A stretch of 64,000 bases of DNA, from contig JANXLV010000196.1 of assembly GCA_025355005.1 (NCBI GenBank), positions 1-64,000 on the forward strand, written 5' to 3'. The notes under the pieces are model-generated. The model searched no databases. It had not been told where the DNA came from and saw nothing but the letters and a program-made list of their open reading frames with translations. Made by a program: the position numbers and the translations under genes. This DNA comes from Myxococcales bacterium. Its GTDB lineage: Bacteria; Myxococcota_A; Polyangia; Polyangiales; Polyangiaceae. Below are positions 5,263-12,365 of this stretch, in pieces. How positions within the stretch are numbered: the stretch's first letter is position 1; each line of letters starts with the position of its first letter.

Positions 5263-6558
5263 ATGCGCTGGAAAGTGAGCCCCACCCAACCATCTTGGCA
5301 ACTATCTCGACGCTCCGGCGGCGCGAGCCTTCTCTTGCTCGTCCTCCTCGCTGGCTGTCACGGTCAGAAGTCCGACGACGTGGCGTCGAAGACGGAGACG
5401 CGCACGGCCATCTTGAACGCAGGCGACGGCGGATTTCAGCCCACGCCGATCTCTTCGGGGCCGGCGCCCAGCCTGGTCGCGGCGCTCGGTCCCAGCACGA
5501 CAGACTCCACGCAGACGCGCGCGCACGCCACGTCGGCGGCCGCTGCCGGCGTGTTGATCGACATCGCCGCGGGCGCATTTCTCACCGGGAGCACGCCCGG
5601 TGATCCGGGCCGTGAGCCCGCGCTCGAGCCCGCGCTCGTGCCTGCCACGCTGAGCGCGTTCCAGATCGATGCGCTGCCGTATCCCAACGACCCCGCGCAG
5701 AAGCCAAAGGTAGGCGTGACCCAGGCCGAGGCCGCGTCCCTCTGCAACCAGCGCGGCGAACGCCTCTGCACGGAGCTCGAGTGGGAGCGTGCGTGCAAAG
5801 GCGACGCAGGCGACATGTTCGCTTCTGGCGCGAGCTGGGACGCGTCGTGCGAAGCCGACGGGGCCTCGTGCGCGAGCGGCGCTGGCGTCCGCGGAATGGG
5901 CGCGCTCCCGGAACATACGGCCAGCACGTTCGCCACCTCCGACAACTTCGTGGTGAAGGGCTCGCGCTCCAACGCTGCGGGAACGGACATCGTCGCGGCC
6001 AAGCGCTGCGCCTACCGCGGCAAGACCGATCCGGCGACGGCGCGAAACGTGGGCTTTCGGTGCTGCAAGGGCACAGCGAACACCGTGGAGGTCGCGACCA
6101 TCGAGTCGCGGCCCACGTTCCGCAAGACGAAGATGGACGCGGCGCAGTTCACGAAGATCGTCGCCGAGCTGCCCGAGCTCTCGCGACTGGGTGAAGGCCT
6201 GCGCTTCTTCGAGCTCGGCGACATCGCGAACGTGACCGGCCGCTCTGGAGCGACGCACGAGGGCATCACGTTCACGCCGTTCCCCGTTCTCTGGAGCCCC
6301 GAGCTGGGCACCGAGCTCCTGGTCGCCACGGGCCGCAGCAAGAGCGCGTCGTTCGTGGTCGCGCTCCACGTGCTCCCGCACGACAAGTACCGCGTCGCAT
6401 CGTCATTCGTGATGCTGAATGACGCAGCGCCCGTGGTCCTGGCCTACGAGCCCTCGAACCGCAAGCAGCTCCTGTGGAGCGCGTGCTGGGGCTGCGCCGG
6501 CGAGCAGGGCTCCATCAGCGTGCGCGAAGACCACAAGGCGATGATCGTCCAGTACTGA
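5263..6558 (+). CDS. Lipoprotein with a sulfatase-modifying-factor (FGE-type) domain
   Basis: 431 aa. A basic start, a Leu-rich segment and LLAGC at about residue 32 form a lipoprotein signal. After a linker, residues of about 100-275 resemble the FGE/SUMF1 fold: IDIAAGAFLTGS opening, CTELEWERACKG in the middle and GFRCCKG closing, equivalent to the family's LPTEAEWE and GFR ends. The C-terminal 155 residues form a separate unknown domain that begins near the phrase MDAAQFTKIV. True FGEs oxidise Cys to formylglycine on sulfatases, but many family members in myxobacteria are non-enzymatic surface proteins; which applies here cannot be told. The downstream zinc-ribbon-like gene starts 2 nt later. 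Confidence 0.75.
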   Translation: MRWKVSPTQPSWQLSRRSGGASLLLLVLLAGCHGQKSDDVASKTETRTAILNAGDGGFQPTPISSGPAPSLVAALGPSTTDSTQTRAHATSAAAAGVLIDIAAGAFLTGSTPGDPGREPALEPALVPATLSAFQIDALPYPNDPAQKPKVGVTQAEAASLCNQRGERLCTELEWERACKGDAGDMFASGASWDASCEADGASCASGAGVRGMGALPEHTASTFATSDNFVVKGSRSNAAGTDIVAAKRCAYRGKTDPATARNVGFRCCKGTANTVEVATIESRPTFRKTKMDAAQFTKIVAELPELSRLGEGLRFFELGDIANVTGRSGATHEGITFTPFPVLWSPELGTELLVATGRSKSASFVVALHVLPHDKYRVASSFVMLNDAAPVVLAYEPSNRKQLLWSACWGCAGEQGSISVREDHKAMIVQY

Positions 6559-7170: not shown

Positions 7171-8706
7171 ATGAAGACGATCCACTCGTTCGGCCTCCTC
7201 TTGTCTGCGCTCGGTGTCGTTGCTGGTTGCTCTGCGGACGGCGCGCAGTACAAGACCGAGCCCGGTCCCGACGGGCAGCCCGCAGCGGGGCAACCTGCAG
7301 GAGGGCAGCCTGGCTCGCAGGCCGGCGGTAACACCGGATCGGATCCCACCGCGCCCGCGCCGGTCGCGCCTGCGGGCAAGGCGATGATCCGCGTCGTGCA
7401 TGCGTCTGCCGACGCACCGCAGGTCGACGTCTATGCGAAGGGCAGCGCGACCCCGCTCGTCACTGGCCTCGGGTACGGGCAGACGTCCTCGTGGATCGAG
7501 GTGGCGTCGGGCAAGGTCGAGGTCGAGCTCCGCGCGTCGCCGTCCACCGCTTCGAGCCCGCTCGTGTACACGACCGGCGCGCTGACGCTGCCGGACACCG
7601 CGAACGTCACTGCAGTCGCCGCTGGGCTCCTGTCGTCCTCCGATACCGCTGATGGCTTCCGCGTGGTGCCCGTCGTGAATGCGTTCGCCGCTGCGGCGAA
7701 GGGCACGACGCGCGTTCGCGTCCTTCATGCTGGCGCAGACGCTCCCGCCGTGGGCCTCGATGTGGGCAACGACGATCCCACGATGCCCGAGGTCGCGAGC
7801 CTCGCGCGCTTCGCCGATACCGGCGCATCCGGCGTCGCGCTTCCGTCTGGCAAGCCGCTCGCGATCGGCATCGACGCAGGTGGCGCGCGCGTCACGGCGT
7901 TCACCACTCCGGCGTTGCCCGATGGCGGCGACGTGCTCCTCATCGCGACGGGCCTGCTCGGCAAGCTCGCACGTGAAGGCGGTGGCTTCTCGATCCTCGC
8001 CGTGGGCTCGAACGGCAACCTGGGCTTCATCAAGCAGGATCCGATCATCTACACGTTGCACGCATCACCGGATGCGCCGGCCGTGGACGCGTTCGTCGGC
8101 GAGGCGAAGATCATCGACAACCTCTCCTTCGGCAAGCTCACCGCGCCCATCCAGGTGCAGCCAGGCAGCTACGGCATCGACGTGTTCGCGCACGGCGCCG
8201 GCACGGCACGTCCCAGCGGTAGTCCCGCGCTCGCGGCGCAGAGCGGAAAGCTGCTGGCGGGCGAGCGTTACCTCACCGTCGCCACTGGCTTCCTTGCGCA
8301 GAATACGCTCTCGCTGCAGGCCGCGCGTGAGGGCTTCGATCTGACCGATGGCGCCGCGCACCTGCGCGTCGTCCACTCGTCTCCGGACGCGCCGGCCGTC
8401 GACGTCGGTCTGCTCTCTGCCGCAGGCACGTCGATCTCGCCGTTGTTCTCGAACATCAAGTTCGGGGGCTCGTCGTCGGACACCGGCGTCTCGGCCATGC
8501 CCGCGTCGCTCCCGATCGGCGTGACGCCCACCGCCGCCGACAGCACGGTCGTCGCCCGCTTCACGGTCCCCGCGGCCGCCAACGAGCGCGCCTTCGTTGT
8601 CGCCGCCGGTGCGCTGTCTCCGCCCCACGGCGCGCAGGGCTTCCGTCTCGCGGTGGTCGACACCGCTCAGTCTCCGTGGACGGTCTCGCACGTGTTCGCG
8701 CACTGA
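7171..8706 (+). CDS. DUF4397-repeat surface lipoprotein
   Basis: 511 aa. Signal peptide with lipobox VAGC (Cys20), a Gly/Pro/Gln-rich linker to about residue 70, then four domain repeats. Each opens with a related phrase: VVHASADAPQVDVY (about 74), VLHAGADAPAVGLD (about 187), TLHASPDAPAVDAF (about 293) and VVHSSPDAPAVDVG (about 395). This phrase is diagnostic for DUF4397, a beta-sandwich found on bacterial cell surfaces. Function is unknown; adhesion or carbohydrate contact is often supposed. A strong AGGAG precedes the ATG. The ECF sigma factor gene follows after 30 nt, so this protein may be part of the same envelope-stress unit. Confidence 0.88.
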   Translation: MKTIHSFGLLLSALGVVAGCSADGAQYKTEPGPDGQPAAGQPAGGQPGSQAGGNTGSDPTAPAPVAPAGKAMIRVVHASADAPQVDVYAKGSATPLVTGLGYGQTSSWIEVASGKVEVELRASPSTASSPLVYTTGALTLPDTANVTAVAAGLLSSSDTADGFRVVPVVNAFAAAAKGTTRVRVLHAGADAPAVGLDVGNDDPTMPEVASLARFADTGASGVALPSGKPLAIGIDAGGARVTAFTTPALPDGGDVLLIATGLLGKLAREGGGFSILAVGSNGNLGFIKQDPIIYTLHASPDAPAVDAFVGEAKIIDNLSFGKLTAPIQVQPGSYGIDVFAHGAGTARPSGSPALAAQSGKLLAGERYLTVATGFLAQNTLSLQAAREGFDLTDGAAHLRVVHSSPDAPAVDVGLLSAAGTSISPLFSNIKFGGSSSDTGVSAMPASLPIGVTPTAADSTVVARFTVPAAANERAFVVAAGALSPPHGAQGFRLAVVDTAQSPWTVSHVFAH

Positions 8707-8736: not shown

Positions 8737-9291
8737 ATGCTGCCCGCGCTCCTCCCCCGCATCGCGAACGGCGACAAGACAGCCGTTCGCGAATGCATCG
8801 CGCGATACGGAGGCCTCGTGTGGTCGCTCGCGCGGCGGCTCTCGCCGAACGACGCGGAGGACGCGGTGCAGGACATATTCGTGGACCTCTGGAAGAGCGC
8901 GAGCAGGTTCGACCCCCAGGCCGGAACGGAGGTCACGTTCATCGCCACCATCGCGCGCCGCCGGCTCATCGACCGGCGGCGCAAGGTGCGGCGGGACCCC
9001 CGGACCGAGGCGCTCAGCGACCACCTCCCCAGCGAGGGGCAGATGCCCGCCGAGGTCGGCGCCGAGGCCAATTTTGCGGCCCGCGCGGTCTCACAGCTCC
9101 GCCCCGAGCAGCGCCAGGTGCTGGTCCTCACCACGTGCCACGGCCTGACCCACGAGGAAGTGGCAGCGGCCACCGGGATGCCGCTCGGCACTGTGAAGGC
9201 ACACGCACGACGCGGACTGATGGTCGTACGCGATGCGCTCGGGCTCGGCGATCCAAGCGCCCCCGCCCAGCGTACGGAGGGGTGGACATGA
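8737..9291 (+). CDS. ECF RNA polymerase sigma factor
   Basis: 184 aa. Region 2 is visible as DAEDAVQDIFVDLWKSASRFDP (helix contacting the -10 element and core), followed by IARRRLIDRRRK. Region 4 is LRPEQRQVLVLTTCHGLTHEEVAAATGMPLGTVKAHARRGL, a helix-turn-helix reading the -35 element. Region 3 is absent, as expected for the ECF group. The last codon overlaps the anti-sigma gene (ATGA at 9288), typical for a sigma/anti-sigma pair. Confidence 0.93.
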   Translation: MLPALLPRIANGDKTAVRECIARYGGLVWSLARRLSPNDAEDAVQDIFVDLWKSASRFDPQAGTEVTFIATIARRRLIDRRRKVRRDPRTEALSDHLPSEGQMPAEVGAEANFAARAVSQLRPEQRQVLVLTTCHGLTHEEVAAATGMPLGTVKAHARRGLMVVRDALGLGDPSAPAQRTEGWT

Positions 9292-10154
9292 ATTCGATGT
9301 TCGACAGAGACGCTCGCCTCCGCGAGCTCTACTGCGATGCAGCGCTGGTTGGTCTGGATACAGCGGAGCAAGCACAGCTCGCGCAGCTGCTCGCGGAGAC
9401 GGGGCGACGCCCTGGCAGCCCGGAGGAGCAGAGCTACGAGCGCGCCGTGATCGCGATCGCGCTGGCAGGCGCGGCGTCCCGTCCGGAGCCCATGTCGCCG
9501 GCGCTCGCGGAGAAGGTTGCGATGCGCGCCTTCGAGGCGATGAGCGCGCCCATGTCGGGACCGATGAGCGCGCCCGTCGTGCAGCTGTCGTCGCGACGGT
9601 TCCGGACGGTCGCGATCGTGGGATGGATCGCCGCCGCGGTGTGCCTCGTTCTCGCGGTCGGCGCGATCGTGAAGCGCCCGCGCGAGGTGGTGGTGACGAA
9701 CACGGTCGTGGTGCCCGCAAGCGCGCCCACCGTGATCGCTCCGCCGCCGCCCGAGCGCCCGGAGTCGCAGCGTCAGGCGCTGCTCGCGCGGCCCGGCACG
9801 GTGAAGATGGAGTGGGCGGCCACGAAGGATCCGGCCTCCAAGGTCGCCACGGGTGACGTGGTGTGGAACGCGAAGGAGCAGACTGGCTTCATGACGTTCC
9901 GTGGGCTCGCGAAGAACGATCCCGCAAGCGTGCAGTACCAGCTCTGGATCTTCGACAAGTCGCGCGACGCTCGTTATCCCGTGGATGGCGGCGTGTTCGA
10001 CATTGACAGTGAGAGTGGCGACGTCGTCGTCGCGTTCCATGGGCGGGTGCCCGTGGGGGACGCGAACCTGTTCGCGGTGACCGTGGAGAAGCCGGGCGGG
10101 GTGGTGGTTTCGAAGCGGGAGCGGATCGTGCTGACTGCCAAGCCTGCGGTGTAG
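9288..10154 (+). CDS. Membrane anti-sigma factor, RskA-like
   Basis: 288 aa, started by the ATG that overlaps the sigma factor stop. The cytoplasmic N-terminal part (1-100) starts MNSMFDRDARLREL and is helical; a single membrane segment lies near residues 107-128 (FRTVAIVGWIAAAVCLVLAV). The periplasmic part ends in the RskA C-terminal pattern with YQLWIFD and FAVTVEKPGGV. No zinc HxxxCxxC motif is seen in the N-terminus, so this is the RskA rather than the ZAS type. It should hold the preceding ECF factor inactive until proteolysis. Confidence 0.85.
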   Translation: MNSMFDRDARLRELYCDAALVGLDTAEQAQLAQLLAETGRRPGSPEEQSYERAVIAIALAGAASRPEPMSPALAEKVAMRAFEAMSAPMSGPMSAPVVQLSSRRFRTVAIVGWIAAAVCLVLAVGAIVKRPREVVVTNTVVVPASAPTVIAPPPPERPESQRQALLARPGTVKMEWAATKDPASKVATGDVVWNAKEQTGFMTFRGLAKNDPASVQYQLWIFDKSRDARYPVDGGVFDIDSESGDVVVAFHGRVPVGDANLFAVTVEKPGGVVVSKRERIVLTAKPAV

Positions 10155-10182: not shown

Positions 10183-11154
10183 TCAGAGCGCGAGCACCTT
10201 GTCTTCTCCAAGCGACTTCACCTTTGCGTCCACGATGGTGAGCAGCTGATCGCGTCGCGTGAGGATTGCGTGGCGCTGGGCTTCCGTGAGCAGGGGAGCT
10301 CCGGTTTCGTCCCGGCCCAGCGCTTGGTCCAGCGACGCGGCGTCGAGCTTTCTGGTGGCTTCGATCAGGGCTCTTGGGAAGCGGTCGGCTCCGTTCACCA
10401 GTGTCAGGTGCTCCTTCACTAGCTTCTCCGGGACTGGTTCGAAGAACGCGCCGTCGTTGTCCACGAAGAGCAAGTGTTGCTTCTGCGCGTCGAGCCCGAC
10501 GTTTGCTCCGCTCCAGCGATCCCAGTTGCCGGTCAGCGTGTCGAACACGAGCAGCGACGAGATCTCCGGGGCCAGCTCGTGCTGCGGTCCTTCCGGCGTC
10601 GCGCCCACGCGCAGCCACGCGCGCCATCGCGAGCGAAGCGGCTCCGCTTCCAGCGGGATGAACGACAGCCCGGTGATCCACGGCATCAGGGCGCCGCGCA
10701 CCTTCCCGTCGTGGGCCGTAACCTCCGCATCGAAGAGCGTCTGCCCGTCCGCATTGCTCGCCGCACGAAGCGCAGTCGCAGGAAGCGAGACGAGCAGCGC
10801 CGTCGGAACGTTCGTGATGCCAAGCGCGCTCTGCAACCGAAACGCCGCGGCCTCGCTGCGGTACCGAAGACGCCCACGCGAAGACTCCGGCTTGAACGCG
10901 GCCACGCGCCCGTCATCGAAGGTGATCTTGTAGACGACGGAGGTGTGACCGATCGGCTTCGCGGATTTGATCGTCGCGTCGCCAAAATTGTCGGACGTCG
11001 AGGGGGAGGGTGAGGTCGAGGGGGAGGGTGAGGTCGAGGTCGAGGTCGAGGTCGAAGTCGTCGTCGATCCGCCTTTGCACGCCACGCTCACCGCGCTCGC
11101 CGCCATCGCGGCGATCAGGGCGTGTGCGAGCGCGCTATGCGAGGATGCGGTCAC
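10183..11154 (-). CDS. Lipoprotein with a FAM20/HipA-like protein-kinase-type domain
   Basis: 323 aa. Signal peptide ending SVSVAC (lipid Cys26), a Ser/Thr/Pro low-complexity linker at 30-54, then a domain carrying all catalytic positions of an atypical kinase fold: FKPE with Lys88, helix-C Glu101 in RSEAAAF, TGNWDRWSGAN with Asp212 as base and Asn218 as metal ligand, and LLFVDND with Asp232 as second metal ligand. GNxDRxxxxN followed by xDNG/D is the arrangement of FAM20C-type secretory kinases and of related PI3K/HipA-like families. An exported bacterial kinase or pseudokinase is thus likely; substrate unknown. The GTG start overlaps the hydrolase gene upstream by 20 nt. Only 20-30% confidence in the exact subfamily. 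Confidence 0.7.
   Translation of the reverse strand: MTASSHSALAHALIAAMAASAVSVACKGGSTTTSTSTSTSTSPSPSTSPSPSTSDNFGDATIKSAKPIGHTSVVYKITFDDGRVAAFKPESSRGRLRYRSEAAAFRLQSALGITNVPTALLVSLPATALRAASNADGQTLFDAEVTAHDGKVRGALMPWITGLSFIPLEAEPLRSRWRAWLRVGATPEGPQHELAPEISSLLVFDTLTGNWDRWSGANVGLDAQKQHLLFVDNDGAFFEPVPEKLVKEHLTLVNGADRFPRALIEATRKLDAASLDQALGRDETGAPLLTEAQRHAILTRRDQLLTIVDAKVKSLGEDKVLAL
10997..11061. repeat. GTCGAG-based tandem repeat encoding the Ser/Thr/Pro linker
   Basis: Two copies of an 18-bp unit (GTCGAGGGGGAGGGTGAG) run into about five copies of GTCGAG. It lies inside the kinase-like lipoprotein gene and encodes STSTS and SPSPS. Multiples of 3/6 bp mean that slippage would alter linker length without breaking the frame. 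Confidence 0.8.
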
Positions 11155-12115
11155 GGATGAACGCCGTTACTCGTTCGTTGACGAGCTCGGGTTGCTCGAT
11201 GGCCGCGACGTGACTGCCGCCCTTCACCATCAGGAGCTCTGCCTTGGGGATCGTCTCCGCCATGTACTCGGAGAGCGCAGGGGGCGTGAACGTGTCCTTC
11301 TCTCCGGCGATGATGAGCACGGGAATGTCGATCTTCGCCATGTACTCTTCGGCGGTGTGATTGCCCGCCGCCCGAAGCATCTTCAGGAACATGGGAAAAT
11401 CCACGTGGGTCATGTGCTTCAGGTATGGGAGCATGTCGTCCGCATGCACCTTGTCCGGATCGACGTCCCGCGCGCGCAGCGCAAGCTTCAACGCGACCTC
11501 AGGCGGGATGCGAGACCACAGCGCACGGACGATGTCCGGCTGCTTCTCCACGATGTCCATCAGCTTGGGCAGGATGAGGTCGAGCAGCGGCATGCCGCGA
11601 AACGACTGCGTCACCTTCCCGAAGCTCCCGCAGATCAGCACCAGCCCACGGACCTTGTCCGGGTACAGGTGGACCTCTTCCAGCGCGACCTGCGTCCCCA
11701 TCGAGTGCCCCAGGATCACGCACGGCGGATCCGAGACATGCAGGCGCACGCTCCGAAGGTCAGCCGCGTGGGCGGGGATGTCGATGAGGTCCGGATTTTC
11801 GGGTGCACTGCTGCGCCCATGGCCCCGATAGTGCCAGTGCGTGAGCTGGAGCAGCTTCCCTACCTCGTCGTAGAGGTACTTCCAGATGAACCCGTCGCAA
11901 AGAATCCCGTCACAAAAGAACGCGGTAGGCGTGTTTGCGCCAGGCCCAATGGGATCAACGTGACCAACGGGATCAATGCGATCAACGCTCGGAACGCCGG
12001 CCGGGTGAACCGGCCTCGCCCTCACGAACAATCGTGTCCCGTCTGTTGCCGTCGCGAAGGAGTGCTCCTCATCCGCCGGGAAACCCGACGGCGGTGGAAC
12101 ACTGTGACTCTTCAC
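11135..12115 (-). CDS. Alpha/beta hydrolase
   Basis: 326 aa from a GTG at 12115, chosen because it begins 7 nt after the stop of the upstream regulator gene; longer frames would run through that gene. The fold is clear: HYRGHGRS oxyanion region, nucleophile elbow GHSMG, acid in GEKDTFTP and catalytic His in GGSHVA. The catalytic triad is complete. Substrate is not indicated; esterase, lipase or haloperoxidase-like roles are all possible. It sits in the middle of a three-gene operon between a ribbon-helix-helix protein and the kinase-like lipoprotein. Confidence 0.88.
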   Translation of the reverse strand: MKSHSVPPPSGFPADEEHSFATATDGTRLFVRARPVHPAGVPSVDRIDPVGHVDPIGPGANTPTAFFCDGILCDGFIWKYLYDEVGKLLQLTHWHYRGHGRSSAPENPDLIDIPAHAADLRSVRLHVSDPPCVILGHSMGTQVALEEVHLYPDKVRGLVLICGSFGKVTQSFRGMPLLDLILPKLMDIVEKQPDIVRALWSRIPPEVALKLALRARDVDPDKVHADDMLPYLKHMTHVDFPMFLKMLRAAGNHTAEEYMAKIDIPVLIIAGEKDTFTPPALSEYMAETIPKAELLMVKGGSHVAAIEQPELVNERVTAFIRDRILA

Positions 12116-12122
12116 GTTTCGC

Positions 12123-12365
12123 TCACGGCTCGTCGTCGTCGTCGGCGCCGTCGACTTCGTTGACGCTCGGAAGCTTCTTGATCTCCAGGCGGGAGATCTT
12201 CCAGGCACGCTGAACTACCCAAGAAAGCGAACGGTCGAGGCGCGCTGCCTCTTCTTTGATCTCCTGGAGCATCGATTCGGGGAAGTAGAGACTCTGCTTC
12301 CTCTTGTCGGTCTTGGAGCTCTCGCTGCGAAGGTTCGAAATCGAGTCCTTTTCTCCGCTCGCCAC
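12123..12365 (-). CDS. Ribbon-helix-helix small DNA-binding protein
   Basis: 80 aa with a GTG start at 12365 behind a strong AGGAGG (7-nt spacing). The segment KQSLYFPESMLQEIKEEAARLDRSLSWVVQRAW is a short beta strand followed by two helices, as in CopG/Arc-type regulators and the small myxobacterial family I recall as TIGR04563. The C-terminus is acidic (DGADDDDEP). No toxin gene lies beside it, so an antitoxin role is not supported. It heads the hydrolase/kinase-like operon and may regulate it. Confidence 0.75.
   Translation of the reverse strand: MASGEKDSISNLRSESSKTDKRKQSLYFPESMLQEIKEEAARLDRSLSWVVQRAWKISRLEIKKLPSVNEVDGADDDDEP

Follow-up and report, generated by a model that had tools for sequence, protein, structure and literature searches.

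The window analysed here, a stretch of 64,000 nucleotides from a Myxococcales bacterium (contig JANXLV010000196.1), carries on its minus strand a gene (10183..11154) for a protein of 323 amino acid residues that, judged from its translation, its relatives, a PDB profile search and AlphaFold and Foldseek comparisons, combines a predicted export signal with a FAM20-like kinase domain. Animal FAM20 kinases phosphorylate secreted proteins and sugars and account for a large part of the phosphorylated proteins in animal secretions; FAM20C acts on SxE sites and FAM20B on xylose. With a modest preference over other readings, we propose that the bacterial protein is an exported, probably lipid-anchored FAM20-like enzyme that acts as an envelope phosphotransferase on envelope or secreted proteins. 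The analysis showed the predicted fold, conserved catalytic residues, export signals that recur in the family and a conserved gene order; we infer catalysis, a protein rather than a sugar as the acceptor, and ATP as the donor.

The N-terminus and its export signal

The open reading frame starts with a GTG codon at 11154 and its stop ends at 10183, giving 323 codons. The original prediction had not mentioned the minus strand. The residues it had named, Cys26, K88, E101, D212, N218 and D232, were all found in the translation at their numbers and in their contexts. Residues 1-25 (MTASSHSALAHALIAAMAASAVSVA; 11080..11154, minus strand) form a predicted signal peptide with a hydrophobic core that scored above every one of 200 shuffled sequences, and comparable signals are present in the orthologs. 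The core is followed by SVAC, with Cys26 (11077..11079, minus) as the candidate lipid-modified cysteine. Since a serine occupies position −3 of the lipobox and the n-region before the core has neither lysine nor arginine, this is a mediocre lipoprotein signal. Most close orthologs have canonical lipoboxes, for example LLLAAC, LALVAC, LSLLAC, LALLAC and LVALAGC. The strong h-region, the cysteine and the orthologs speak for a lipobox at Cys26, its own motif and the lack of a basic n-region against it. A lipid anchor on the window protein itself is probable, not certain.

The Ser/Thr/Pro linker that had been described after Cys26 is present at residues 27-54 (10993..11076, minus) and varies in sequence among the orthologs. 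The coding DNA is mostly a 6-bp/18-bp tandem repeat (10997-11067 of the window), so the length of the linker may vary between strains; the repeat looks like simple-sequence drift. Autophosphorylation of the Ser/Thr-rich linker was considered and dropped because the linker is missing from the conserved sequence of the orthologs.

Export signals were then compared across the family. A strong hydrophobic N-terminal stretch was found in 57 of 72 distinct relatives and a lipobox, searched with a simple pattern, in 33 of the 72; the rest include ordinary or twin-arginine-like signals. Since such signals recur across the family, an extracytoplasmic location is predicted to be a family trait, and the original claim of an exported protein agrees with the signals that it and most of its relatives carry. 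Within the class, export as a family habit is well supported by these N-termini, though the anchor varies. In five loci, twin-arginine-like signals (e.g. TRRSLLSATALAM...ALA) replace the lipobox; these would export the kinase pre-folded, perhaps with nucleotide or metal bound. In a divergent set of five loci outside the class, the kinase domain lies C-terminally in reading frames of about 800-900 residues, and no export signal was seen there.

It is very improbable that the N-terminus stays uncleaved and that the protein is a cytoplasmic kinase like HipA or type II PI4K. The atypical n-region and the serine at −3 would fit such a protein, as would the overlap with the gene of a hydrolase that shows no obvious signal. 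However, the hydrophobic stretch exceeds all shuffles, the orthologs have clear lipoprotein, Sec or Tat-like signals, and the HipB-like partner gene of a HipA system was not recognised nearby; the HipA N-terminal domain was not matched either.

Fold and catalytic residues

The kinase domain comprises residues 55-323 (10186..10992, minus) and was assigned by alignment, PDB profile, AlphaFold and Foldseek. The family profile was searched against all PDB sequences and matched FAM20C (4.6e-18), FAM20A (1.4e-15), FAM20B (7.2e-13) and Caenorhabditis elegans FAM20 (5.3e-10); PI4K type II followed at a great distance (0.006). When 39 members were searched one by one with Pfam, Fam20C matched 22 of them (best 5.9e-10), FAM198 eight and PI3_PI4_kinase five; paralogs in related genomes scored above Pfam's own threshold for Fam20C, reaching 72.5 bits. 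The FAM20 signal emerged only with the family alignment, and searches with a single sequence were nearly mute. The window protein alone gave no Fam20C match in Pfam, only HipA_2 at E 0.22, and phmmer against the PDB matched only the linker. NCBIfam matches of the window protein alone to BamB (0.0011) and the SCO1664 family (0.0096) were at chance level and rejected.

The AlphaFold model of the window protein had a mean pLDDT of 94.8 and a pTM of 0.92. The 27 best Foldseek matches in the PDB were all FAM20A, FAM20B or FAM20C (E 1.8e-11 to 6e-10, TM normalised to the query 0.69-0.75), followed by PI4KII (1.3e-7) and then Helicobacter pylori CtkA (1.8e-5). No non-kinase fold, which had been named as the outcome that would speak against a kinase, came ahead of these. 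The original prediction had placed the protein with FAM20, HipA and PI3K alike. By profile and by Foldseek the first of these likenesses holds; from sequence and model, the protein is clearly nearer to FAM20 than to HipA or PI3K, whose kinship with it goes no further than the wider kinase superfamily. Related genomes also carry a second paralog subfamily (L074, L075, L079-L082) that resembles animal FAM20 even more closely, e.g. in 'AEIAAYHLDRLLGLGRVAPAAGR' and in Pfam Fam20C scores of up to 72.5 bits; the window's own genome yielded no member of it. When a tree was built that included pieces of FAM20C and FAM20B, these six loci were nearest to FAM20; this was a quick search with FAM20 on a long branch, from which the direction of descent is unreadable.

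In human FAM20C, K285 and E311 form the ion pair, D458 is the catalytic aspartate and D478 the metal-binding aspartate (PMC4421793). These align with K88 (FKPE, 10891..10893), E101 (SEAAAF, 10852..10854), D212 (GNWDRWSGAN, 10519..10521) and D232 at the DFG position (FVDND, 10459..10461), all on the minus strand. N218 (10501..10503, minus) is the canonical metal-binding asparagine. FAM20C also has E306, which comes from a FAM20-specific loop, binds Mn and is indispensable; a Gln in its place renders FAM20A inactive (PMC4421793). The corresponding position, five residues before the ion-pair glutamate, is occupied by Leu96 here; across the family it varies, being acidic in 14 of 72 relatives. FAM20C has Glu306 and a Thr in place of the asparagine, and hydra FAM20B has Asp at the Glu306 position and a Tyr for the asparagine. 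Hence the bacterial family holds the general K/E/D/N/D set, whereas FAM20 differs by having Glu306 and no such Asn. The catalytic set that had been called complete is complete in the canonical sense, but not in that of FAM20C, which lacks the asparagine and uses a glutamate that is absent here. N218 could stand in for the metal role of Glu306. The core cysteines and disulphides conserved in FAM20 were not found, and the window protein has no cysteine after Cys26. Because Glu306 and the core cysteines are absent and the canonical Asn is present, the protein is, by its sequence, FAM20-like and not a member of FAM20.

Of the 269 domain positions, 14 are invariant in the alignment of 39 sequences (E101, A103, A104, G154, W159, D205, N210, D212, R213, S215, G216, N218, D232 and R300, full-length numbering). 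E101, D212, N218 and D232 are all among them (hypergeometric P about 5e-6), and K88 is conserved in at least 90% of the sequences. In the 72 distinct Myxococcota relatives, E101, D212 and D232 are 100% conserved, and an Asn shortly after D212 (N218 in the window protein) is present in all 72. Poor conservation of K88, D212 and D232 in homologs had been named as a result that would weaken the kinase assignment; the two aspartates are invariant, and position 88 is Lys in 65 of 72 relatives and Arg in seven. The seven relatives with Arg keep the other catalytic residues and may be inactive or altered, so some members of the family may have no activity.

The window protein itself could be a pseudokinase or a kinase-fold enzyme that transfers no phosphate, serving for binding or as a scaffold like FAM20A, or transferring AMP. 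We regard this as unlikely. The missing Glu306, whose replacement by Gln inactivates FAM20A (PMC4421793), the change of Lys to Arg in the seven relatives and the scarcity of ATP outside the cytoplasm would agree with it, but all canonical catalytic residues are kept, they are among the most conserved positions, and Asn218 could assume the metal role of Glu306.

Distribution and gene neighbourhood

Matches at E <= 0.001 were found in 43 of 59 related genomes, a few of them weak or within low-complexity stretches. One scan of public genome contigs with exact peptide patterns added 11 loci, all myxobacterial or deltaproteobacterial. With the family profile at 1e-6, 80 of 284 genomes of the phylum had matches, up to six per genome. 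On these sequence matches, the kinase family is widespread in Myxococcota. In its own genome the window gene is the single family-profile match, and the profile search revealed no further copies. Two weak matches in the own genome were rejected as extra copies; they align only with the signal and the low-complexity linker. The viral contigs and plasmids searched contained no relative and so give no hint that the gene came from a phage or mobile element.

A conserved run of genes on the minus strand, which recurs in relatives, ends with the kinase gene. The run begins with a gene for an 80-residue TIGR04563-family protein (12123..12365, NCBIfam 4.3e-33), which is adjacent and 82-93% identical in relatives. 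It is followed by an alpha/beta hydrolase gene (11135..12208, Pfam Abhydrolase_1 9.3e-21) whose true start may be further in. The stop of the hydrolase gene, directly upstream, overlaps the start of the kinase gene by 20 bp, so the two are probably co-translated; no export signal was recognised in the hydrolase reading frame seen. Of 10 same-family genomes tested, 9 have the hydrolase gene immediately upstream of the kinase gene in the same orientation, G010 being the exception; the two more distant genomes tested both lack this arrangement. A CtpA-like protease gene on the opposite strand flanks the run, and a family-2 glycosyltransferase gene is near the kinase gene in several genomes. The conserved gene order argues that the kinase gene is kept and vertically inherited, but it does not name a substrate, and none was apparent from the neighbourhood.

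On the plus strand, an ECF sigma factor gene and an RskA_C anti-sigma gene converge on the kinase gene (8737-10154), and a DUF4397 lipoprotein-like gene lies at 7171-8706; these were not at the same place in the compared relatives. A probable lipoprotein with an FGE-sulfatase-like domain (5263-6558, plus) also lies downstream of the kinase gene in three relatives.

The main rival to our proposal, which we hold to be clearly less probable, is a glycan (or lipid headgroup) kinase that would phosphorylate LPS or an envelope polysaccharide on one of its sugars. FAM20B phosphorylates the xylose of proteoglycans. It also matches here, with a profile E of 7.2e-13 and with 5xoo and 5xom among the best Foldseek matches, and its xylosylkinase activity has been argued to be the older one in animals (PMC5865150). 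The retention of the gene by vertical descent and the family-2 glycosyltransferase gene found near it in several genomes point in the same direction. However, no sugar site was identifiable in the sequence, and the glycosyltransferase gene sits past the intervening opposite-strand protease gene, so this adjacency is weak evidence.

Proposed function and comparison with known kinases

For an envelope phosphotransferase acting on proteins, the following steps would apply. The protein would be exported by Sec, and its domain, held on the flexible linker, would then be in the periplasm or at the outer surface. The loop GHTS, the K88-E101 pair, N218 and D232 would bind a nucleotide triphosphate and a divalent metal. 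D212 would serve as the catalytic base, and the gamma-phosphate would be passed to hydroxyls of envelope or secreted proteins. The donor would be extracellular or periplasmic ATP from leakage, lysed cells or prey. One source reports ATP measured outside growing bacteria (PMC3882102), and prey lysis would add extracellular ATP. The missing Glu306, the Arg for Lys in 7 of 72 relatives, the lack of an evident substrate and the scarcity of ATP outside the cytoplasm were counted against the proposal.

In a survey of the Legionella kinome, the FAM20 cluster was called eukaryotic- or Metazoa-specific (PMC9758233). Bacteria or prokaryotes are unmentioned in a 2018 paper on FAM20 structure and evolution (PMC5865150), and a 2021 FAM20 review names no bacterial relative, with bacteria only in a reference title on another kinase. 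We found no description of bacterial FAM20 relatives of this kind in the open-access literature, to which the search was confined, subscription papers being outside its scope. Since the Pfam Fam20C model already catches some bacterial members, databases may include them without remark. Bacteria seem to own a widespread extracytoplasmic counterpart of an enzyme family so far described from animals. More tentatively, and with somewhat less confidence than in our proposal for the single protein, the family may be an old one in Myxococcota whose members are active outside the cytoplasm as FAM20-like kinases and, using ATP present there, phosphorylate proteins of the envelope, secreted proteins or glycans. 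This would be a bacterial secretory phosphorylation system, related and possibly ancestral to animal FAM20, and would differ from it in having the canonical metal-binding Asn, FAM20 depending on Glu306 instead. If a conserved bacterial family has the FAM20 fold, most of its catalytic residues and a non-cytoplasmic address, exported kinases of this kind are not confined to animals, and studies of how FAM20 arose would have a place to begin. Two questions also become directly testable: whether phosphorylation of a bacterium's own envelope proteins or sugars takes place outside its cytoplasm, and which source supplies the ATP.

Among known bacterial kinases, the CotH proteins are atypical kinases that have been grouped with FAM20 (PMC9758233); the surface structure that they modify is the spore coat (PMC7821199). 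They work in the assembly of this coat rather than as exported lipoproteins, and no CotH Pfam match was found in the 39 members at E <= 1. The HipA-like families gave weak profile matches, less significant than that to FAM20: HipA_2 (PF20613) in 19 of 39 members (best 1.3e-6) and the bacterial SCO1664 family (TIGR03843) in 15 of 39 (best 2.6e-8). The window protein scored 11.2 bits with HipA_2 against a Pfam cut-off of 27 bits, and PF20613 had no match at E 0.001 in the five genomes tested, its own included. H. pylori CtkA (3akj) has a HipA-like fold, is a far weaker match (Foldseek E 1.8e-5) and is not known to share a gene context with the window protein; the PDB describes this bacterial kinase as proinflammatory, i.e. 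active outside its maker. PI4K type II (4hnd, 4hne) belongs to the same branch of the kinase fold and is also a much weaker match (Foldseek E 1e-7, profile E 0.006). Its substrate is a lipid and it is cytosolic.

With the animal FAM20C, FAM20A and FAM20B structures (4kqa, 4kqb, 5yh0, 5yh3, 5xom), the window protein shares the fold, the K/E/D/D order and the alignment, including the segments 'FKP...AEIAAFHLDRILDFRRVPP' and 'FDFLMGNMDR...LDNGRGF' common to FAM20. It differs in its smaller domain, about 270 residues compared with 350-430, in the low identity of the structural alignments (14-17%) and in its bacterial export signal. Both FAM20 and, by prediction, the window family are located outside the cytosol.
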